Virus record (IMG/VR): IMGVR_UViG_3300042922_000472 | Span: 1-22,384 of that record | DNA: 22,384 nt | Reading direction: 5' to 3' (one strand) | Origin: a virus | Part shown: piece by piece, positions 231-18,207 of the stretch | Position numbering within the stretch: position 1 is the first letter of the stretch | How the letters are laid out: each line of letters starts with the position of its first letter | Made by a program: the position numbers and the translations under genes | The notes under the pieces: generated by a model | Database searches by the model: none | What the model was told of the DNA's origin: nothing | Seen by the model: only the letters and a program-made list of their open reading frames with translations

Positions 231-470
231 GTGGTTTGCCTGCTTGAAGAAAAGCGAACTGAAAAAGAACTTTCCTTAAATCAATTGGCTGAAAAAATTG
301 GGGTTAGTAAATCTTATCTATCTAAGATGGAAAAGCACCCTGGTGCTTGTAATCCAACTGTAAACGTGATTTTTAGGTTATCTAAAGAACTTGGAATAAG
401 CTCTTACAGAATCCTACACTACTTCAAACAATATTATAGTTTTGATAGTGAGGAAGACCAGGATAATTAA
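231..470 (+). CDS. XRE-family HTH regulator (79 aa)
   Basis: Small DNA-binding protein of the Cro/C1 (HTH_3) type. Residues about 15-60 carry the usual pattern: SLNQLAEKIGVSKSYLSKME forms helices 2 and 3, followed by NPTVNVIFRLSKELGIS. The length is that of a bare repressor DNA-binding domain with a short acidic tail (DSEEDQDN). The start is uncertain. GTG at 231 sits inside GAGGTGG, which looks like a ribosome site, so translation may begin a few codons later at a non-ATG codon. The gene is convergent with the ATPase gene; the stops are 12 bp apart and share a hairpin. It probably regulates genes to the left of the window or itself; the target cannot be read from the sequence. Confidence 0.8.
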   Translation: MVCLLEEKRTEKELSLNQLAEKIGVSKSYLSKMEKHPGACNPTVNVIFRLSKELGISSYRILHYFKQYYSFDSEEDQDN

Positions 471-482: not shown

Positions 483-2828
483 TTAAACAGGTTTAGGTAA
501 TTCAGTTATAAAACTAGCTATACCATTTGAATATTGAACTATATTAAAAGATGGATATTTATATGTCTTGCTCATTTCTTTTAAATCTTCATATTCAAAA
601 TTGTCTATTTCATCTTTAAAATATTCAAAGTCTTCTTTTATCGCACCTTTAAGTAGCATAAAGCTGCATCCAGCACCTTTTAAGCTATAAATTGTTTTCT
701 TATCTAATTGATCTAAGTATTGCAATGCTAAAACTGGTTTGAATCCAAACTTTCTACCTTGAGTTAATTTACTTTCTAAAAATCTTTCTGCTGTTTTAGT
801 TTGACTTATTTCATCTATGATTATATGAGTTCTTCGTTGCGTCTCTGATAAATCCCCTCTTAGCTCACATGCCAGCCATGTTTTAGTAATAAAGAAAGTA
901 GTAATAACATTCTTTGCATAGTCTTTAAATTTACTCTGTGGCATACGTATTAACACAACTTTTCCTTCTTCTGTAGCCTTAGCAAAATTTATATTATTCT
1001 TCGGATTTTTCTTAAACATCTTTTTTAAATAAAAATCTCTCATAAGCAAACTTATACGATCAAGAATTCCTTCTATTTTACTATCCTTAGTTCCACACTT
1101 TTGGCTAGGATTATCTTTTGTAGCTTTTGTGTATTCATCTAATTCCTCTAAGGCTTGTATTTCTTCCTCAAATTCTTCTTTTAATTCAGTTGGAATACAA
1201 TTATTAATTGATTCTTCTCTAAATTTATAATCTTGCAAGCACCTTATAACATCTTTCAAGGTAGTGTTTTCCTTCATATATATAACATTAGCTGCCGCAC
1301 TCAAATAACGGCTCATTTTAGGGCTCAAAGGTTCTCCGTTATCATTTATACTATCTACTAATTGTATTGTCATTTCAGCTTTTTTATTAGCTAATGCCTG
1401 CCTTTCAAACAAAGATATATTTTCTGTAAATTCAATTTCATTGTACGATAAAGATTGCAGCCCTTCCTCTGTACTTAAATCTAATATTATTAAATCTTCT
1501 TTAGGTACTACTTTTTCAATAGTTTTACTGGCTTCATTATTCCTTATAAAATCTATGTGTACTATACTCTCTTTTCTGGATAAACAATCTTTGGAATAAT
1601 GACATAAGTAAGTTGTTTTCCCTCCACCTTGCCTTGCCAATAGAACTAAACCTAATGATCCTATGTCTTTATGATCTTCAAAATAAGTTTCGAATGACTT
1701 GCCTTTGAATTTATTAGTTCCTAATGTAATATATCCCTGCCTTAATTGCTCTGGTATTTGAACTTCTTCTACATTCACGAATTTTAATTTAAATTGATAC
1801 AAAAGGCTTCTTGCTGGAATTTGTAAACAAGTGCTTCCCGCTTCTTCTACACTCATAGTATTATAATCTACTCTATAATCAGTTTGTTCTATATTCTTAA
1901 ACTTTTTTCTTATCTTCTTTTTTACCTTTTTATATATAAGTTCGTTATCTTCATCTAAAACCCTATAGGCTTGGCATGTACTCAAAGCATTATTAGTTTT
2001 TCTTATATTGTCTTGGCTTTCTGAAAACACAACCATTTGCGTATCTAAAACAGTAGATTCTTTTTTCTTTTTTGTAGCCGCTGAAAGCTCTTTCTTATTT
2101 TGCATATAACCTATAACTACATCATATATACTTCTTTGTTGTTGTTCTGGATTACCGCCTGTAAAATCATCAATAACACGAAACAAGTCACTGATAGTTT
2201 TAGTTAAAAACAATACACTCATTTTGAAAATGTATTCTGGTGATGTTTGCTTTTTATCTACTATTTTATTTTCTTTTAATTTTTCTATAGTTCCTAAGTA
2301 TCTTTCTAACCATGAAAACTGGCTTATAGGTAAGAAATTATATATTATTGTTACTCTATCATCATCTTTCAAAATATCCATTACTGACAAAATGGAGTTT
2401 AATGGTTCATTTGATTTCTTATCTACCTTAAGGCTTAGTGCATCTTCTTTTTTGTATGATAATTGATACATTTCGGCATTGTCTGAGATAGGTTTTATTG
2501 GTTCCTCCAACACTTCAACTGTAGCTTTATTCCATATCTCTGTTATTTTCTCAAATAGCATATTCAAATATACTTCAGGAACTAAAAAATAAAAACTGCA
2601 ATCATTATTTTGTATATCTATAATGTAAGAAATTTTAAAAGTTGTTTCAAAGAATATCTTCCTTTGTTCTCTTCTTATTCTTCTATCAAGACTTTTGTAG
2701 GTAAGGGCAATAAATTTGCTTAAGTTATCAGAATTGTAATTTCGAATTGATTTATGGCTTGTAATTTTAATATAACGGTAGGTTGGCTTTACTAATTCAA
2801 AGTAATTGCTTAATTTTAGACTTTTCAT
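483..2828 (-). CDS. VirD4/HerA-like ATPase, conjugation-type (781 aa)
   Basis: P-loop ATPase resembling DNA-transfer proteins of the VirD4/TraG/HerA kind. Walker A is ARQGGGKTT (residues 398-406) and Walker B is HIIIDEIS (668-675), with a following ALQYLDQL (701-708) like the post-Walker-B glutamine segment of this superfamily. About 390 residues precede the P-loop and match nothing I recognise. They include a charged stretch (about 245-260) and a basic segment (299-312). No clear transmembrane helix is visible, so membrane contact may come from the small membrane proteins encoded just upstream. The start overlaps the preceding stop as ATGA, which indicates translational coupling. Role inferred: an energy source for moving DNA or protein through a membrane complex. 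No relaxase is visible in the window. Family placement is good at superfamily level; the function is open. Confidence 0.65.
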   Translation of the reverse strand: MKSLKLSNYFELVKPTYRYIKITSHKSIRNYNSDNLSKFIALTYKSLDRRIRREQRKIFFETTFKISYIIDIQNNDCSFYFLVPEVYLNMLFEKITEIWNKATVEVLEEPIKPISDNAEMYQLSYKKEDALSLKVDKKSNEPLNSILSVMDILKDDDRVTIIYNFLPISQFSWLERYLGTIEKLKENKIVDKKQTSPEYIFKMSVLFLTKTISDLFRVIDDFTGGNPEQQQRSIYDVVIGYMQNKKELSAATKKKKESTVLDTQMVVFSESQDNIRKTNNALSTCQAYRVLDEDNELIYKKVKKKIRKKFKNIEQTDYRVDYNTMSVEEAGSTCLQIPARSLLYQFKLKFVNVEEVQIPEQLRQGYITLGTNKFKGKSFETYFEDHKDIGSLGLVLLARQGGGKTTYLCHYSKDCLSRKESIVHIDFIRNNEASKTIEKVVPKEDLIILDLSTEEGLQSLSYNEIEFTENISLFERQALANKKAEMTIQLVDSINDNGEPLSPKMSRYLSAAANVIYMKENTTLKDVIRCLQDYKFREESINNCIPTELKEEFEEEIQALEELDEYTKATKDNPSQKCGTKDSKIEGILDRISLLMRDFYLKKMFKKNPKNNINFAKATEEGKVVLIRMPQSKFKDYAKNVITTFFITKTWLACELRGDLSETQRRTHIIIDEISQTKTAERFLESKLTQGRKFGFKPVLALQYLDQLDKKTIYSLKGAGCSFMLLKGAIKEDFEYFKDEIDNFEYEDLKEMSKTYKYPSFNIVQYSNGIASFITELPKPV

Positions 2829-3091
2829 GCTTTTATAAAACCTCTAAGTGCTTGTAGTATAAAATACAATATAAATGATCCTGAAACGTATTTACCAGCC
2901 TTTCTATTACCGCCTATATAAAAAGCTAATGCTATTAAACAAATTATAGGACAAACTATATCAGAACTCTCTAAAGCAAAATTTCCTATAGATTTTAATA
3001 TATATATCATAAAGCCAGAAATTTTATCCTTTATACTATCAGAAACTTTATCAAATCCGTTTTGAATTGCATTAGATATACTTTCATTCAT
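2825..3091 (-). CDS. Small two-helix membrane protein (88 aa)
   Basis: An amphipathic N-terminal half (residues 1-40) is followed by two hydrophobic helices at about 44-60 (IVCPIICLIALAFYIGG) and 68-83, separated by a short basic turn (NRKAGK). This layout is that of VirB2/TrbC- or Maff2-like small membrane subunits of conjugation machines, but sequence similarity cannot be claimed. An AAGGAG ribosome site precedes the ATG, and the stop overlaps the ATPase start by 4 nt, so the two proteins are probably made together and may interact at the membrane. I do not recognise the family. Confidence 0.65.
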   Translation of the reverse strand: MNESISNAIQNGFDKVSDSIKDKISGFMIYILKSIGNFALESSDIVCPIICLIALAFYIGGNRKAGKYVSGSFILYFILQALRGFIKA

Positions 3092-3102
3092 AATTAAACT
3101 CC

Positions 3103-3519
3103 TTATACATTAATTCCGCATAAATGTGCTATCCATGTAAATACTCTCGGCACTAAACAAGTTCCAACTGTAGCAGCAAGATATTTCATCACAATACTTC
3201 CTACATCTGAACTTCTATTTCCAATCAAGGATTTTGCGATTTCTAACAAGCACATGACAATACATATAATCACAATACAAACCTGTAATACCATTACAAC
3301 TTCGCCTTTTGCACTCCTTAGTTGCTCCATTTCATCAGCATAAGCACGCATATGCATATTCATATAAGCTATTGATGTAATAACTGCTGTTTTTAGTTTT
3401 GGATTCTTCAAGATTTCTCCTGCTATCTTATCTAACGTATCTAAATCTAATTCTTCTAACGTAAGGTTTCCTCTCTGAATTTCCATAAAGTCATGGATAC
3501 TCATGGTAATTTCTTTCAT
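3103..3519 (-). CDS. Membrane protein, pilin-like topology (138 aa)
   Basis: First gene of the ATPase operon. A soluble acidic N-terminal region (1-70, with LTLEELDLDTLDKIAGEIL) is followed by two long hydrophobic helices at about 73-96 and 108-130, separated by a polar loop (GNRSSDVGS). Two helices with a small polar loop is the topology of VirB2-like transfer subunits. Here the long N-terminal domain is not a signal peptide, so that assignment is weak. A GGAGG ribosome site lies 8 nt before the ATG. A second in-frame ATG (MSIHDF) is possible. It is 11 bp from the next gene and surely cotranscribed with it. Confidence 0.65.
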   Translation of the reverse strand: MKEITMSIHDFMEIQRGNLTLEELDLDTLDKIAGEILKNPKLKTAVITSIAYMNMHMRAYADEMEQLRSAKGEVVMVLQVCIVIICIVMCLLEIAKSLIGNRSSDVGSIVMKYLAATVGTCLVPRVFTWIAHLCGINV

Positions 3520-3594
3520 TTTTCAAACCTCCATCGAATAATTATTTGATTTTTGTAAATAATAAAGATATTAATAAAAAGTGAGGTGATTTCA

Positions 3595-3663
3595 ATGTTC
3601 ACATTTACTTTAGGTGCAATTGCATTTTACACTGTTGCAGTAGGTGTTATAACTTTTCTGTAA
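3595..3663 (+). CDS. 22-aa hydrophobic peptide
   Basis: Tiny ORF beginning MFTFTLGAIAFYTV and ending VITFL, so the whole peptide is one membrane-spanning helix with no charged side chain. It has a good ribosome site (GTGAGGTG, 6-nt spacing) and a possible promoter upstream (TTGATT 3546-3551, TATTAA 3569-3574, 17-bp spacer). It is divergent from the membrane protein/ATPase operon, and its transcript would run about 125 nt on to a strong terminator at 3790-3823. Such peptides are often type I toxins, holin-like toxins or small membrane regulators; nothing in the sequence decides between these. Short length makes coding a risk, but the ribosome site and composition support it. Confidence 0.4.
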   Translation: MFTFTLGAIAFYTVAVGVITFL

Positions 3664-3735
3664 ACTAAGTTAAATCTTAATTTATTCTTAAAATTAATCT
3701 CCGATATATAAAAACAGGAAACTTTTTAAAACTTG

Positions 3736-3786
3736 TAGCATATGCTATTAGCGTAAGCGAAGCGCAGCAAGCAGAGCTGATAGCTC
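3736..3786 (+). other. GC-richer AGC-repeat region with palindromes
   Basis: In an otherwise AT-rich gap, this stretch holds a perfect 12-bp palindrome (TAGCATATGCTA, 3736-3747), a run of closely spaced AGC/AGCG units (about 3750-3776) and a 5-bp hairpin with a 3-nt loop (GAGCT at 3774-3778, AGCTC at 3782-3786). It would lie in the 3' region of the 22-aa peptide transcript. It may be a structured RNA, or a DNA site such as a partition or transfer locus. I do not recognise it. Confidence 0.35.
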
Positions 3787-3789
3787 CTT

Positions 3790-3823
3790 AGCCTAAGTCT
3801 ATTATTTTAGATTTAGGCTTTTT
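3790..3823 (+). terminator. Intrinsic terminator (plus strand)
   Basis: A 12-bp stem with one G-T pair (AGCCTAAGTCTA at 3790-3801 against 3808-3819) and a 6-nt loop is followed by TTTTT. On the minus strand no T run follows, so it serves a plus-strand transcript, most simply that of the 22-aa peptide. Confidence 0.75.
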
Positions 3824-3830
3824 AAATGGC

Positions 3831-3997
3831 TTATTTAGGTAATATAGTGTACTTATTAGCGCAATAAATAAGATACTCGTTAAAATTGATATTTGACATA
3901 GTTTTAAATGTTTCTGAGTTCTTATTCCAATCTTTTATAATATCAGTTATATTTGCTTCAGGCTTTGTCTCTGATTCTTTTTTATTTATTTTTTCAT
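3831..3997 (-). pseudogene. Interrupted 55-aa ORF (frameshift at an A6 run)
   Basis: A good ribosome site (AGGAGAGG, 6-nt spacing) leads to ATG AAA AAA TAA. One base back in frame the reading continues: MKKINKKESE..., then NITDIIKDWNKNSETF, and to the end NEYLIYCANKYTILPK, stopping at 3831-3833. The intact product would be 55 aa. The break is exactly at a six-A run, so it is a one-base deletion, a sequencing error, or a site of -1 ribosomal or transcriptional slippage. It lies 12 bp downstream of the 55-aa RHH-like gene and would be cotranscribed. The product is acidic to neutral and lysine/asparagine rich. The family is not recognised. Confidence 0.45.
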
Positions 3998-4009
3998 TGC
4001 AGTCCTCTC

Positions 4010-4177
4010 CTATATATCTTTAATTTTCCTTCTATATTTTTCTGGATAATATATCTCTCCAAGCACTTGTTTTAATTCTGTTCCTCGGTCTTCCAGTTCG
4101 TATAAACGCTTATACAGTTCTACTTCTTTTGTAGACGTAGTTTTGAAACTCAATGGTATTATTAAAGGCTTATCCAT
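4010..4177 (-). CDS. 55-aa RHH-like, partition-type DNA-binding protein
   Basis: Begins MDKPLIIPLSFKTTSTKEVE and continues with LYKRLYELEDRGTELKQVLG. An early beta-strand (IIPLSF) followed by TSTKEVELYKRLYEL and a second helix is the layout of ribbon-helix-helix proteins. The phrasing resembles small clostridial plasmid proteins that accompany partition functions. The ribosome site AAAGGAG is well placed. Two palindromes lie in the promoter region just upstream (4236-4253 and 4277-4290), consistent with autoregulation or a centromere. RHH assignment is by pattern only; there is no ParA or ParM in the window to confirm partition. Confidence 0.45.
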   Translation of the reverse strand: MDKPLIIPLSFKTTSTKEVELYKRLYELEDRGTELKQVLGEIYYPEKYRRKIKDI

Positions 4178-4301: not shown

Positions 4302-4329
4302 AAAAAAGGCACCTAATCTTCAAGGTACC
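4302..4329 (-). terminator. Terminator of XRE gene
   Basis: On the minus strand, GGTACCT (4329-4323) pairs with AGGTGCC (4314-4308), 7 bp with one G-U, with an 8-nt loop, followed by TTTTTT. It overlaps the stop codon at 4313-4315. Confidence 0.65.
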
Positions 4330-4516
4330 AAATGTCATCTACCTTTCGATTAAGTGCTTTAGCTATTATCAACAACGTTTCTATATTGCCTTGAACCTTC
4401 CCTAACTCTAATGAATTATATGTGCTACGCTTTATTCCCAATAATCTAGCAAACTCAGTTTGGTTCATCATATATTCTTTCATTCTAATTTCTTTTAATT
4501 TATTCTTTACGCCCAT
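4313..4516 (-). CDS. XRE/Cro-C1 regulator (67 aa)
   Basis: A bare HTH_3 domain: NQTEFARLLGIKRSTYNSLE (about 18-37) holds helices 2-3, then NIETLLIIAKALNRKVDDIW gives the rest of the five-helix fold. It is the length of plasmid and phage Cro-like repressors. A strong GAGGTGG ribosome site precedes the ATG, and its own terminator overlaps the stop, so it is monocistronic. It faces away from the 47-aa membrane protein gene across 71 bp and probably controls that shared promoter region. Confidence 0.85.
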   Translation of the reverse strand: MGVKNKLKEIRMKEYMMNQTEFARLLGIKRSTYNSLELGKVQGNIETLLIIAKALNRKVDDIWYLED

Positions 4517-6386: not shown

Positions 6387-6830
6387 CTAAGCTTGTACTG
6401 TTTGTTGCACATCTGTGTTTGTTGTTGCTGCTGCAAGCGATTGAAATTTACTTAATTGATCTTTTAGACTTGCATTTTCTGTTTGTAATTCTACGGTTCT
6501 ATCTTGTAGTATCTTTAAGGCAGCTAATTCACTTAAAGCAGCATCTTTCCCTTGATTTACTTCACCAGCAACCGACTGTCTTAATTCAGATATATCATCC
6601 TGAGTTAATTCTGGGAATTTGGCGAGTAATATTTTATCGAATGCATCAGCTTTGCTTGCAATTTTTTCCTCAACAGTCTTAGTGATCCTAAAGTTTTCTT
6701 CAACTACATTCCAAGTTTGTTTTGCTGCTGTAATATAATTTTGATTTTTTAATAATGTTTCTTCTAATCCTGCCTTAATTGCTTTCTTTCCTAATACTTC
6801 TATTAATAATTTCACTAGTGTTTTTATCAT
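6387..6830 (-). CDS. Phage holin, LLH family (147 aa)
   Basis: Resembles the LLH-type holins of Gram-positive phages: a short hydrophobic N-terminus (IKTLVKLLIEVLGKKAI), then a long soluble helical part (KADAFDKILLAKFPELTQDDISELRQSVAGEV, about 82-113) and a coiled-coil-like segment (KILQDRTVELQTENASLKDQLSKF). The N-terminal hydrophobic stretch is short for a full membrane helix, so the pore role is less sure than the family. It lies between a second holin and the endolysin, as expected of a lysis cassette. The ribosome site AAGGGAAG is 8 bp before the ATG. Confidence 0.7.
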   Translation of the reverse strand: MIKTLVKLLIEVLGKKAIKAGLEETLLKNQNYITAAKQTWNVVEENFRITKTVEEKIASKADAFDKILLAKFPELTQDDISELRQSVAGEVNQGKDAALSELAALKILQDRTVELQTENASLKDQLSKFQSLAAATTNTDVQQTVQA

Positions 6831-6855
6831 TTTACATACTTCCCTTCATTCTTAA

Positions 6856-7299
6856 TTATTCTTTTTCTTTACTTTTAATTTTTAAAATATCAATTGCTTC
6901 AATAACTGCGGGTGGCATTTTAATTCCCATTAATCCTAGATTCTCTACTATGCTTAACACCTCATTTGTCATAAACCCCAATATAGCTGCATTTCGTAAG
7001 AATCCATTTGAATTTACAACAATATCTATTTGAACAATCACCATAATCATTAGATATAAATATATTTTTTTTACTAATCCTTTAAATCCGGCGTCGCTTT
7101 GTGCTCCTCCTGTTTCTGTTTTAGGGCTGTTTTTGAAAATAATGGCCACAGCTCCACCACTTAAATAGTCAATTACACTGCAAATTACTAATGCGTGTAT
7201 AAGATAGTCCCACCCGCCTAATAAAGGGGTTAAAAAACCTCCTACTGTACAAATGCATCCATAAAATGCTGTTTTTATTACAAGTGCTTTTTCATCCAT
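6856..7299 (-). CDS. Phage holin, TcdE/holin_4_1 type (147 aa)
   Basis: Membrane protein of the phage holin family that also contains clostridial TcdE. Hydrophobic helices lie at about 7-27, 32-54 (WDYLIHALVICSVIDYLSGGAVAII), 76-96 (KKIYLYLMIMVIVQIDIVVN) and 103-125. GFLTPLLGGWDYLI followed by DYLSG is the hallmark segment. A charged tail (DILKIKSKEKE) ends the protein. The role is to open the membrane to the endolysin at a fixed time. Good ribosome site (GGAAGGTGAC). It is followed 25 bp on by the LLH-type gene. Confidence 0.88.
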   Translation of the reverse strand: MDEKALVIKTAFYGCICTVGGFLTPLLGGWDYLIHALVICSVIDYLSGGAVAIIFKNSPKTETGGAQSDAGFKGLVKKIYLYLMIMVIVQIDIVVNSNGFLRNAAILGFMTNEVLSIVENLGLMGIKMPPAVIEAIDILKIKSKEKE

Positions 7300-9611: not shown

Positions 9612-10637
9612 TTATATGTTTGAACTCTTATTTAAGTTATTAATTTTAATATTATCCTTATAGTTTCCTAGCAAAATTATATTTAAAATATTTATTTTCC
9701 TTATGACAAATTTTGAAATTATATACGGTATAACTAATCCCCATATAAACATATTTACAACTACAAAATTATAGTTCAAATTCATTTTTGTAAATAATAT
9801 TACTCTAATTGGAACTTGCACAAACCATGAAATTAAATAAATGTCATAACTAAAATCTGATATCTTCCCTATTATATTATTTACCTTATAAAAGTTTAAT
9901 AAAAATAGCCCTAATGACAAACTTGTTATTATTCCAATTAAAGATATGATAAAATTAAAATAATAATTTTGTGAATTAAAATTTATAATGTTTAATAGTA
10001 CCAATAGGGTAATTCCGAAAAATAATGTCATTTTATTTCGCACTATTTTTTCTATTGATTCATAATGTTTATAAACAATTAATCCGAAATAGAAAAAAAA
10101 TAAATATTGAAAAACATTATAAAACGGGCCCGAAATTTCTTGTAATAAAAAGTGTAATACAAATGATAACAAGAACATCGCTTCTAAATTTATTGAATTT
10201 AACAATATAAATATTATTGATATTATAAATAAAGTATATAAAAACCAAGAACCACCGTAAGGCGAACCACCAGTCAAAATACTCAACAACGAATTGCTAA
10301 AATCAAATTTATGATGTGCTACATCTGAAAATAAATATTTTAAAATTAATGCTGGCACAGATAATATGAAATACGGAATCATTAATCTGAAAAATTTCTT
10401 CTTAATACATTGTAATTTACTTTTTAAACCACTAATTTTTAATATTTTAAATGAAACAAACCCAGACATAAACATAAATAATGGCATATGAAAAGAATAT
10501 ATAAATTGCTCCATATACTTTATAATCATGCTATGATTATAAATATGAAAGTCTGAATCTGGAAAGGAATGTCCTAATACGACCAATATAATAGCTATTC
10601 CTCTTGTAGTCCTTATTTCTTCAAAAAACTTATTCAT
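9612..10637 (-). CDS. Acyltransferase 3, surface O-acetylation (341 aa)
   Basis: Integral membrane acyltransferase of the OafA/Oac type, which moves acyl groups (usually acetyl) onto surface sugars. The R-x10-H signature is present: IRTTRGIAIILVVLGH with R12 and H23. About ten hydrophobic helices follow, including YMEQFIYSFHMPLFMFMSGF and GGSWFLYTLFIISII, with the HMPLFMFMSG motif usual for the family. It has its own consensus promoter and a hairpin downstream, and sits between tailspike and tail fibre genes, so it looks like a lysogenic-conversion gene that changes the polysaccharide the phage itself binds. Substrate unknown. Base use is even more AT-rich than its neighbours. Confidence 0.85.
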   Translation of the reverse strand: MNKFFEEIRTTRGIAIILVVLGHSFPDSDFHIYNHSMIIKYMEQFIYSFHMPLFMFMSGFVSFKILKISGLKSKLQCIKKKFFRLMIPYFILSVPALILKYLFSDVAHHKFDFSNSLLSILTGGSPYGGSWFLYTLFIISIIFILLNSINLEAMFLLSFVLHFLLQEISGPFYNVFQYLFFFYFGLIVYKHYESIEKIVRNKMTLFFGITLLVLLNIINFNSQNYYFNFIISLIGIITSLSLGLFLLNFYKVNNIIGKISDFSYDIYLISWFVQVPIRVILFTKMNLNYNFVVVNMFIWGLVIPYIISKFVIRKINILNIILLGNYKDNIKINNLNKSSNI

Positions 10638-15393: not shown

Positions 15394-17364
15394 CTAACTT
15401 GCAACCGATGGAATCACTCCACCTTCTTGAGTAATTGTTTGAAAATTTATATACCAATCATTTCCTCTTGTATCTCCTTGATATGTCATAGCTATAACAC
15501 GATAGATTCCGTCTTTATCAAGTGATCTAAATAAAGCTTGAGAATTATTTGTATTAGAATTTGTATCATTAGTTGCACTTGGTAATTCTCCACCATCTAC
15601 ATCTATGAGTGGCCTTGGTCTGCCTATAACATAATCACCATAAATAGGTCCATAAGATACTTGCTCATCCCCTGCTTTATTAGCCGTTCTTGCTGCATAT
15701 ATATCGTTGTTACCTCCATATATAGCCACATGATAACATGTGCCATCTCCATCAAACCAAAATACAATATCTCCAGCAATTGCAGCTTGAAGATCTATAT
15801 TATATAGCCCTTGAGCTTTTACTTGCTGCCATTGATTTGTTGTTATATCTAATATGTCTAAACCTGCTACTCCATAACAGTGCTTTACAAACAAAGAACA
15901 ATCATAATATGTTATTCCTTCTATTGTTTGGCCTCTTTTTTCTTGACTATATCTAACATTAGGATCATCGCATATTTTCTTAGCTTCCGCGATAATAGCT
16001 TGTCTTGTACTATTTACACTTGGCATATTTTCGCTACTGTTAGTACTAGTCGTTGAAACACTTGGTGCAGAATTATTGCTATTAATTTCAATCTGCTTAG
16101 CTCTAACTAAGCTATTATTTATATGAATAAGGCTATTAAGCTTAATTTGAGGATTCAATAAGCATTGTCCTGTTAATCCATAATCTGTTTGTGATGGAAC
16201 TCCTATAAGTCCAGAACTTGGATTCAATTCGAATATCTCACCATCTGGTAACTCATCCATACTCACTAAATTTAATTCACCATTATCCATATAAAAATGT
16301 AAGTCATAACTTTCAGCTATCTGTTGTATATAATCACTTATTTTTCCAAACATTACTTTCCCTCTTGTTAATGTTCTATCTTTTAATTTATCAGAAATAC
16401 TTCCAAGTGGAATAGGAATGCTTGCTTTGCTTGCTATATGTTCAATTATATCTCTTGCAGTTTGTCCTCTAGCTATGGAGTAATTAGCAATTTCAAAGTT
16501 TATAGCTCTATCTGAATCTAACGCTACTATTGTTAATTTATAAGTATTACCATTCTCTTTTTCTCGAATTGTCTGAAGAATATCACCATCAAATATTAAT
16601 CCGAATTGAGAACCTTCATAACCTGCTTCTACTGTTACTCTAACCCCAGACATCATAATTTTATTTTCGGTAAGTGCATTTAAATTGTAAATAGTAATTA
16701 CGCTCGAATTAGGTTGCATTAGTATAGTTTTTTCTATATTGAATGTACAATGCAAATCTGAAACATCTAGAGCGTTACCTGAATTATCACTAACAGTTAT
16801 TCGGTATCTTCGTCCAAAAATCATATCACCTTTTTTCTCGCTGTTAGCAACAATTTGATAATTAGTGGCTTCAACAGTTATTTGTTCTGAATTACTATTA
16901 GAACTATCTCCACCTATATACGTCCCATTATCGTACTGAGTTAGATTATTTTCATTTAATACCTGCATTGTTATTGAATAGTAGTTTGATTCAGTCGCAT
17001 ATCCTGCATCAGCTATTGCTTTGACTTGAGCACTTGCATCCTTTAGACCAATCGCGGCCTTGTAACGTGAGTTGTTGGCTAAAAAATATCCGTGATCGTC
17101 TATAGAATCATCCCAGGAGTTATAATGAGTATAGTATCCACCATCATCCGTTGCCCATGTTCCTTGAGATATATTTAAGTTTGGATTATGATTTCCATTA
17201 TACTTAATCCCAAATAAATTATTATCTGTTCTGGCTAAATAACTATTCCCCCACCCACTTTCATTTATGGCTTGAGCGATTGTTACAGATGGCAAAATTC
17301 CATATTTCTGATAACCTTTTTTTGCACCATTCACTATTTTATTTATAAAGTCTTGGTTGCTCAT
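15394..17364 (-). CDS. Baseplate hub with GH73 and NlpC/P60 domains (656 aa)
   Basis: Tail lysin and hub in one chain. Residues 1-150 are a GH73-type glucosaminidase (ILPSVTIAQAINESGWGNSY, catalytic Glu35). Residues about 160-425 are the gp27/XkdQ-like hub (TFNIEKTILMQPNSSVITIY, FDGDILQTIREKENG, NPQIKLNSLIHINNSLV). A linker leads to an NlpC/P60 endopeptidase (455-590) with Cys489 in YYDCSLFVKH and His545 in CYHVAIYGG. After it the hub resumes: DKDGIYRVIAMTYQGDTRGN (616-635). So the peptidase is inserted inside the hub's last domain. It would cut glycan strands and peptides during infection. Confidence 0.88.
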   Translation of the reverse strand: MSNQDFINKIVNGAKKGYQKYGILPSVTIAQAINESGWGNSYLARTDNNLFGIKYNGNHNPNLNISQGTWATDDGGYYTHYNSWDDSIDDHGYFLANNSRYKAAIGLKDASAQVKAIADAGYATESNYYSITMQVLNENNLTQYDNGTYIGGDSSNSNSEQITVEATNYQIVANSEKKGDMIFGRRYRITVSDNSGNALDVSDLHCTFNIEKTILMQPNSSVITIYNLNALTENKIMMSGVRVTVEAGYEGSQFGLIFDGDILQTIREKENGNTYKLTIVALDSDRAINFEIANYSIARGQTARDIIEHIASKASIPIPLGSISDKLKDRTLTRGKVMFGKISDYIQQIAESYDLHFYMDNGELNLVSMDELPDGEIFELNPSSGLIGVPSQTDYGLTGQCLLNPQIKLNSLIHINNSLVRAKQIEINSNNSAPSVSTTSTNSSENMPSVNSTRQAIIAEAKKICDDPNVRYSQEKRGQTIEGITYYDCSLFVKHCYGVAGLDILDITTNQWQQVKAQGLYNIDLQAAIAGDIVFWFDGDGTCYHVAIYGGNNDIYAARTANKAGDEQVSYGPIYGDYVIGRPRPLIDVDGGELPSATNDTNSNTNNSQALFRSLDKDGIYRVIAMTYQGDTRGNDWYINFQTITQEGGVIPSVAS

Positions 17365-17451: not shown

Positions 17452-18207
17452 TTAAACCTTCATAATATAACCTGTACTTTTATCTACATAAAACCATGCT
17501 GATGTAGCGGTATGATCTCCCATGTCATCATAACAATGAATTAAATAAGTATTATCTGTATCTTCCTCAATTGTAATCTTTGAAGGAATGTAAGCATTAT
17601 TTTCACTTAGATAAATTTTAATATTTTGGATTGCCTGTTCTTTGCTAATATTATCATTTGTATTTCCTTTACCTAAGTACTTTATTTCTAAATTGTCATA
17701 AAGCTTAAATATTTTGCAATTATATGGATCATAAATATAATAGAAATCTGCATCATCGCCATATTCATTTTCAGCCTTTAAGCCAACAACCCATTTGTCA
17801 GCCAAACCATAATTGCTTAATCCACTTGCCTCTTTGATGTAGCTTTTTCCAACATATCTTAATTTTAAGCCGCCTGAGAAAGGATTGACTATATTAATAA
17901 TTGATTGAATTTCACTTGGAATTACTGTTGTTGTTTTAGAATCATTCAGGGAACCATTCTCACGCATATAGTACCATGTTCCCTTATCAGTTATCCACCC
18001 AGTTAACATGTTACCATTTCCATTAAAAAAATACCATTGGCCGTTGTTTTGAAGCCATCCCGTCTTTAACGTACCATCTGGACCAATATAATTCCAATAT
18101 TGGTTACTGTTTTGTTTCCATTCAGCATATGCTGGAACACTCGCTACAAAAGTTGTTGTAAATATCATAATCAAACTTAATATTCTTTTTTTAATATTTT
18201 GTCTCAT
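17452..18207 (-). CDS. Secreted cell-wall-binding-repeat protein, moron (251 aa)
   Basis: A signal peptide (MRQNIKKRILSLIMIF then VASVPAYA, cut after residue 28) is followed by two to three choline-binding-type repeats: W-NYIGPDGTLKTGWLQNNGQ, WYFFNGNGNMLTGWITDKG, WYYMRENGSLN. The C-terminal 130 residues (from NPFSGGLKLRYVGKS) include ISKEQAIQNIKIYLSENN and AWFYVDKSTGYIMKV, a PepSY-like look, not certain. It has its own promoter and terminator and is not a tail part. Probably expressed from the prophage and attached to the host surface. It interrupts an otherwise conserved baseplate gene order. Confidence 0.8.
   Translation of the reverse strand: MRQNIKKRILSLIMIFTTTFVASVPAYAEWKQNSNQYWNYIGPDGTLKTGWLQNNGQWYFFNGNGNMLTGWITDKGTWYYMRENGSLNDSKTTTVIPSEIQSIINIVNPFSGGLKLRYVGKSYIKEASGLSNYGLADKWVVGLKAENEYGDDADFYYIYDPYNCKIFKLYDNLEIKYLGKGNTNDNISKEQAIQNIKIYLSENNAYIPSKITIEEDTDNTYLIHCYDDMGDHTATSAWFYVDKSTGYIMKV

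Follow-up and report, generated by a model that had tools for sequence, protein, structure and literature searches.

A conserved phage gene trio with a HerA/VirD4/VirB4-class ATPase and pilin-like hairpins suggests a reduced, type IV secretion-like translocon

Results

The stretch of DNA analysed here (the window) is the entire 22,384-base virus record IMGVR_UViG_3300042922_000472, itself a fragment with no sequence beyond its left end. It covers the tail and lysis segment of a contractile-tailed phage, including the end of the sheath, the hub, baseplate J, holin, and endolysin. Near its left end lie three genes (the trio), which encode a large ATPase of 781 amino acids (aa) and two small two-helix membrane proteins. 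The gap at 3520-4009, between the trio and a small upstream gene, holds a micro-open reading frame (micro-ORF) on the opposite strand, a hairpin, and a terminator. The features of the locus are as follows.

483-2828, minus strand: HerA/VirD4/VirB4-class ATPase, 781 aa, PHROG 5156; predicted N-terminal alpha/beta domain (about 1-365) and motor (about 366-777)
2825-3091, minus strand: 88-aa two-helix membrane protein, predicted second pilin-like hairpin; homologues with an M23 peptidase occur in Alicyclobacillus, Sutcliffiella, Desulfosporosinus, and L019
3103-3519, minus strand: 138-aa VirB2/TrbC-like pilin hairpin (predicted) with a leader-like N-terminus
3595-3663, plus strand: divergent gene for a 22-aa hydrophobic micropeptide, MFTFTLGAIAFYTVAVGVITFL; Shine-Dalgarno sequence GAGGTG
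3744-3784, plus strand: covarying hairpin with a 9-bp stem, GCTATTAGC/GCTGATAGC, in the 3' part of the micropeptide transcript
3790-3819, plus strand: intrinsic-terminator-like stem of 12 bp (loop of 6, TTTTT) closing the micropeptide transcript
4010-4177, minus strand: 55-aa protein with a ribbon-helix-helix/ParR-like look, conserved upstream of the trio; no Pfam hit

An ORF check found the three trio genes with exactly the lengths and positions given in the first-pass annotation of this DNA, including the 4-base overlap between the 88-aa and ATPase genes, for which translational coupling is plausible. The 138-aa gene ends 11 bases upstream of the 88-aa gene. The micropeptide/RNA gene and the DNA-binding-type gene further upstream were both missing from that annotation. 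Relative to locus L009, the closest relative of the trio and our reference for this comparison, nonsynonymous and synonymous rates (dN/dS) were 0.033/0.72 for the ATPase, 0.022/0.35 for the 138-aa protein, and 0.005/0.14 for the 88-aa protein. Since selection is purifying in all three, the trio ORFs are not a chance reading.

The ATPase matches PHROG 5156 (function unknown) over residues 5-766 (E-value 5e-101). Both motifs first read from the sequence, the GGGKT P-loop and the Walker B motif, are present, the former as RQGGGKTT (Walker A; G401, G403, and K404) and the latter as HIIIDE (D672 and E673). G401, G403, K404, E673, R692, and K693 are invariant in the family alignment down to about 20% identity, and all hallmarks of the FtsK-HerA superfamily (Walker A, Walker B, the conserved R/K, and the motor fold) are found in the window ATPase. 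Its AlphaFold model, which like the other models is of a single chain, has a predicted local distance difference test score (pLDDT) of 86. Foldseek places full-length TrwK/VirB4 first among the PDB matches to this model, at an E-value of 1e-12 over some 880 alignment columns, with TrwB, HerA, and IcmO next. Profile comparison with hhalign, whose E-values stand for single pairwise comparisons of small alignments, gave 98.4% for VirD4, 97.9% for HerA, and 96.6% for Gram-positive VirB4, with reversed controls at or below 0.2%; only the motor domain, from residue 366 onward, aligns. The window ATPase matches the Pfam family TrwB_AAD_bind at 4.3e-5, over the Pfam cut-off, and has no VirB4-family Pfam match. 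A search of Bacillota with the VirB4 family PF03135 found one genome only. Where VirD4 has a short membrane domain, the ATPase has a 365-aa N-terminal alpha/beta domain. Because Foldseek favours TrwK/VirB4 while profile comparison orders VirD4, HerA, and Gram-positive VirB4, we place the protein, on sequence and model, as a putative separate branch of the HerA/VirD4/VirB4 group and call it neither VirB4 nor VirD4. The original pairing of a VirD4/HerA-class ATPase with small two-helix membrane proteins holds.

A protein of the 138-aa kind (100-150 aa) lies shortly upstream of the ATPase in all 25 aligned loci. The two helices first proposed for it reappear as a hairpin (64-99/103-133) in its AlphaFold model, of moderate confidence (pLDDT 73.5), which refines the topology by adding a leader-like helix at 40-56. 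Against Pfam, 7 of the 25 family members match TrbC/VirB2 (best E-value 6.5e-6) and 3 match T4SS_pilin (3.1e-5); the window protein alone has no Pfam pilin match. With hhalign the family scores 72% against VirB2 of conjugative plasmids, compared with 0.5% when reversed and 0.2% against VirB3, and it appears to resemble the VirB2/TrbC pilins. The 88-aa family (22 aligned sequences) scores 75% against the 138-aa family and 0.1% against VirB3. We reject VirB3 as its identity on the latter value; judged by its profile, the 88-aa protein is a predicted second hairpin of the VirB2-like kind. Profiles of both small-protein alignments gave only chance-level matches to PDB sequences. The second hairpin is missing from TP-84-type loci, and in SPO1 three very small membrane proteins take its place.

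In six loci the 88-aa counterpart carries an M23 peptidoglycan peptidase, which is fused N-terminally to the hairpin in L006, L019, L027, and L029 and C-terminally in L023; Alicyclobacillus phage MMB025 also has an M23-hairpin protein of this kind. A peptidase at either end would place both hairpin termini outside, which is the VirB2 topology. The inter-helix loop is basic in many hairpin members (GNRKAGK, GYKKGAK), which fits a cytoplasmic loop.

About 60 phage records, together with prophages of Clostridia and Bacilli, carry the conserved trio module. As the whole-family alignment is too divergent for locus searches, closer subsets were used. A tblastn search with the ATPase returned 53-61 phage records depending on the query. 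These include the SPO1 group, SPP1-like Bacillus and Geobacillus phages, TP-84, phage G, Slash/Staley/Stahl, and phages of Lysinibacillus, Alicyclobacillus, and Terrisporobacter. The ATPase also occurs in Clostridium, Paraclostridium, Sutcliffiella, and Desulfosporosinus genomes. It is widespread but not common, because it was matched in 20 of 398 sampled Bacillota genomes, at full length in only a few. The trio is not peculiar to clostridial phage-plasmids, given its presence in lytic SPO1/SPP1-type phages and in integrated prophages. A phage-plasmid carrier finds no support in the window and was rejected, since the nearest relative (G006), with a 94%-identical ATPase, reads as an integrated prophage with a serine integrase. 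Within the G006 record (108.9 kb; L059-L064) there appear to be two prophages in tandem, both having a serine integrase and an endolysin of their own, with the trio at the right-hand end of the first one, near the lysis genes. Separately, the module of L068 (MT362618.1, Microcystis phage MaeS), filed as a cyanophage, resembles that of the Bacillus Slashvirus phage Staley; the host or the record may be wrong.

Upstream of the trio, a small protein with a beta-helix-helix look is found in the window (4010-4177), in SPO1 (27.8), and elsewhere. Its pattern would be compatible with ribbon-helix-helix-like DNA binding, which we only infer because Pfam does not recognise the protein. An actin-like gene precedes it in SPO1 (gp27.9, ALP_N 2e-27), L009, L010, L015, L018, and MMB025, and a tubulin/FtsZ-family gene (PF00091, 1.9e-12) lies upstream of the module in L022 (5648-6745), a 179-kb viral contig. 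No upstream filament gene was seen in the window, GBK2, Ray17, or TP-84. The SPO1 protein (L004 2986-4005) is an actin-like protein (ALP) although SPO1 is lytic. In the gap before the trio, a search for centromere- or origin-of-transfer (oriT)-like direct repeats found only short two-copy families; the strong inverted repeats there are the terminator and the RNA hairpin.

Phage G gp156 is a member of the window ATPase family. Beside it are a TrbL/VirB6-like gp153 (1.8e-11), a small gp154, and a VirB4-like gp155 (1.6e-15), and these neighbours tie the ATPase family to genuine genes of type IV secretion system (T4SS) type. The hydrophobic segments of gp150 are arranged like a leader plus hairpin, making it a possible pilin; gp150-gp156 (L065) form a T4SS-like cluster inside a giant phage.

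The divergent micro-ORF has 22 codons and a strong Shine-Dalgarno sequence. The clostridial loci that were compared encode hydrophobic peptides of 20-26 aa, likewise divergent, about 60-80 nt from the trio start; L034, which was left out of the defining set, also has one. In a strict micro-ORF scan 9 of 15 loci qualified, as against 0.2% of shuffled sequences in a control using the same pattern. The limits of a second pattern were set after viewing the sequences, and the L001 peptide is caught by the first pattern and falls below the limits of the second. Over 63 bases compared between the window and L008, the micropeptide gene shows 13 synonymous and 10 nonsynonymous changes. The stem of the hairpin is kept despite sequence change, with both sides changed in five of six pairs; the trio strand of this region has no predicted structure. 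A covariance model located the RNA element in 2 of 398 genomes, in both cases beside the trio; G367 is an independent hit, and G001 is in effect part of the model through L010. No Rfam family matches the RNA. Most Bacillus-type loci showed no counterpart, with possible ones in vB_BpsM-61 (L012) and L035. The transcript could be an mRNA of the type I toxin kind, or it may act as an antisense regulator whose micropeptide gates the complex. With respect to the open-licence literature, the combination of micropeptide, covarying hairpin, and predicted terminator beside the trio of clostridial loci appears to be new.

Several further observations concern the remainder of the window. The module has an HTH_3 (XRE-type) regulator on each side (231-470, plus strand; 4313-4516, minus strand). 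A 63-aa ORF that L009 has in intact form (6802-6993) survives as a remnant at 3832-3997 (minus strand); a stop occurs a few codons past the start codon in the window, yet the downstream coding sequence is conserved. A membrane acyltransferase (9612-10637, minus strand; PF01757, 2.3e-31) within the tail-fibre region is likely a surface-modification (lysogenic conversion) gene. The baseplate hub (15394-17364, minus strand) is fused to an N-terminal endolysin-like domain, with PHROG matches to both functions, and a secreted protein with choline-binding/cell-wall-binding repeats (17452-18207, minus strand) is inserted among the tail genes.

Discussion

The shared gene set suggests that many viruses of Gram-positive hosts may equip the cell envelope with a stripped-down pump of their own for DNA or protein. 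More specifically, we read the trio as a phage-carried, relaxase-free, reduced type IV secretion-like (Ced-like) translocon with DNA as its likeliest substrate, and give this reading a probability of roughly 0.5. A reduced transfer device was among the possibilities first raised for this locus and is now the best-supported of them, with its substrate, direction, and role kept at the level of inference.

In such a complex the ATPase would probably be a hexameric motor on the cytoplasmic face of the membrane, and the two hairpins would form a pilin-like conduit through it, their termini facing outward and their positively charged loop inward. Where relatives have an M23 peptidase attached to the second hairpin, it would open the peptidoglycan. 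The ribbon-helix-helix-type upstream protein, accompanied in several relatives by a ParM- or TubZ-type filament gene, may hand phage DNA to the motor, and it is on this proposed delivery that we favour DNA as the substrate. In clostridial phages, the divergent micropeptide with its structured RNA in the trio leader probably regulates or gates the trio. There are precedents for parts of this arrangement. The R1 ParM protein binds the T4SS ATPases TraC and TraD, and Par proteins promote transfer (PMC4949242). In the Ced system, for which no relaxase is known, DNA transport relies on two-helix VirB2-type pilins together with VirB4/HerA ATPases (PMC9905601, PMC11868833).

Several observations weigh against this translocon. 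The best TrbC/VirB2 score, 26.7 bits, lies below the gathering cut-off of 27.9, the best matches come from distant members, and the clostridial clade of the 138-aa family alone reaches 46% against VirB2 with hhalign. The fold search with the 138-aa pilin model gave no PDB match. For the ATPase, the TM-scores from Foldseek are generally low (0.35), and profile comparison finds no sequence match for the N-terminal domain. The small upstream protein has no convincing Pfam match, DNA as the cargo is deduced, and SPP1 gp32 is reported to be non-essential (PMC6316719). The VirB6 and VirB8 channel proteins and the relaxase that mark a conjugative T4SS, and VirB3 as well, were not recognised among the scanned proteins of the window, which is a fragment; nor do any of these occur among the Pfam families shown for the complete TPDSL_ph2 genome (25 of 29). 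The first-pass annotation had said that no relaxase or other secretion genes are nearby. As to other secretion genes this was an understatement, the 138-aa family being VirB2/TrbC-like and phage G having VirB6- and VirB4-like neighbours.

It is possible, though in our view unlikely, that the same membrane complex moves proteins or peptides, such as an effector that the phage exports early in infection. Relatives of the T4SS are able to carry protein, neither relaxase nor oriT was seen, the module follows the lysis genes in the window, TPDSL_ph2, GBK2, and Ray17, and that of SPP1 belongs to an early operon with lysis genes (PMC6316719). However, no candidate substrate gene was seen to travel consistently with the trio, whose actual companions resemble DNA-binding or filament proteins.

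The association with filament genes raises another alternative, namely an FtsK-like positioning device in which the ATPase and hairpins anchor and pump phage DNA at the membrane, the ParM/TubZ and small-adaptor pair segregates or centres it, and nothing leaves the cell. A motor of the HerA/FtsK class would suit this task. So would the filament gene of actin-like or tubulin-like type that SPO1, many Clostridium prophages, and L022 carry upstream. Since that gene is not seen at every locus, the hairpins are of the pilin type, and the M23 fusions fit a complex that reaches the cell wall, we consider such a device rather improbable.

Small membrane proteins are typical of exclusion factors, and their presence in the trio could point to a superinfection-exclusion or host-takeover complex that blocks other phages or conjugative DNA and transports nothing. 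The position of the trio near the lysis genes at a prophage end in G006 would suit this, as would the dispensability of the early genes in SPP1 (PMC6316719). A conserved 780-aa motor with invariant catalytic residues would nevertheless be costly for a passive block, and the module is widespread in unrelated phages; we therefore regard exclusion as distinctly improbable. An anti-phage defence system with a HerA ATPase, also raised in the first-pass annotation, has next to no claim on the locus: the PADLOC mad8 profile matches homologues (TPDSL_ph2 2e-9, SPO1 5e-8), but this reflects the shared motor domain, the window ATPase has no PADLOC match, no nuclease, SIR2, or DUF4297 partner was seen, and the module is present in lytic phages.

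Returning to the translocon, a bolder formulation can be offered tentatively. Phages of Gram-positive bacteria might encode their own relaxase-free DNA transport machine, able to carry phage DNA through the envelope without the virion and made of a pilin-type conduit, a wall peptidase, a HerA-class motor, and a DNA adaptor, with an actin/tubulin filament in several phages and control by the divergent micropeptide RNA in clostridial ones. Should the trio work as proposed, tailed phages, SPO1 included, would make a conjugation-type pump during infection or lysogeny. DNA or protein would then have a route that bypasses the virion, the transfer machines of phages and plasmids would be linked, and a gene block that is conserved without known function in about 60 sequenced phage records would be accounted for. 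The question lends itself to direct testing, since SPO1 and SPP1 are B. subtilis phages in laboratory use, and the divergent micropeptide RNA provides a handle on the control of the gene block in clostridial prophages.

Comparison with known systems

The general idea of a translocon is not new, because Godinho et al. (2018) proposed a transmembrane macromolecule translocon for SPP1 gp31.1/31.2/32 and noted synteny with GBK2 (PMC6316719); our statements on SPP1 rest on passages of that paper. For SPO1 gp27.4, no naming paper was found in the open-licence literature. The SPP1 genes gp31-gp31.1-gp31.2-gp32 and their GBK2 homologues represent the same module, with a small upstream protein and small membrane proteins, and the SPP1 ATPase (836 aa) has a TrwB/VirB4/FtsK-like C-terminus (PMC6316719). 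The window ATPase is only about 21-22% identical to those of GBK2 and Ray17. In those passages, the SPP1/GBK2 account describes no relation to pilins, M23, actin/tubulin, or a micropeptide/RNA (PMC6316719). To this we add how widely the family is spread, the relation to pilins, the fusions with M23, the association with actin/tubulin genes, the T4SS neighbours in phage G, and the micropeptide RNA.

The archaeal Ced/Ted systems are similar in having no known relaxase, two-helix VirB2-type pilin(s), and a VirB4/HerA ATPase with a VirB4-like N-terminal domain (PMC9905601, PMC11868833). They differ in being chromosomal, in having neither M23 nor ParM, and in possessing the multi-transmembrane channel protein CedA/VirB6, which is absent from the phage trio (PMC9905601, PMC11868833); no gene of this kind was seen beside the trio, while phage G has one. 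In the conjugative virB2-virB3-virB4 block, as in trwL-trwM-trwK of R388, a pilin, a small membrane protein, and a large ATPase follow each other in the same order and with similar sizes, and a peptidoglycan hydrolase is nearby. In contrast, the 88-aa protein is not VirB3, the trio motor is no closer to VirB4 than to VirD4/HerA, and VirB5-VirB11 and relaxase were not seen with the trio. As for ParMRC/TubZRC partition systems, the cytomotive filament gene is present in relatives and was not seen in the window.

Ibs, Fst, and TisB represent the class of type I toxins and small membrane peptides. The micropeptide gene shares with them a hydrophobic product of 20-26 aa, a strong Shine-Dalgarno sequence, a structured 3' region, and a terminator; unlike them, it sits divergently to a putative translocon operon and has no Rfam match. 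Finally, phage G gp150-gp156 resembles the window module through gp156, which belongs to the same ATPase family, and differs from it in carrying a fuller T4SS set comprising the TrbL/VirB6-like gp153, the small gp154, and the VirB4-like gp155.

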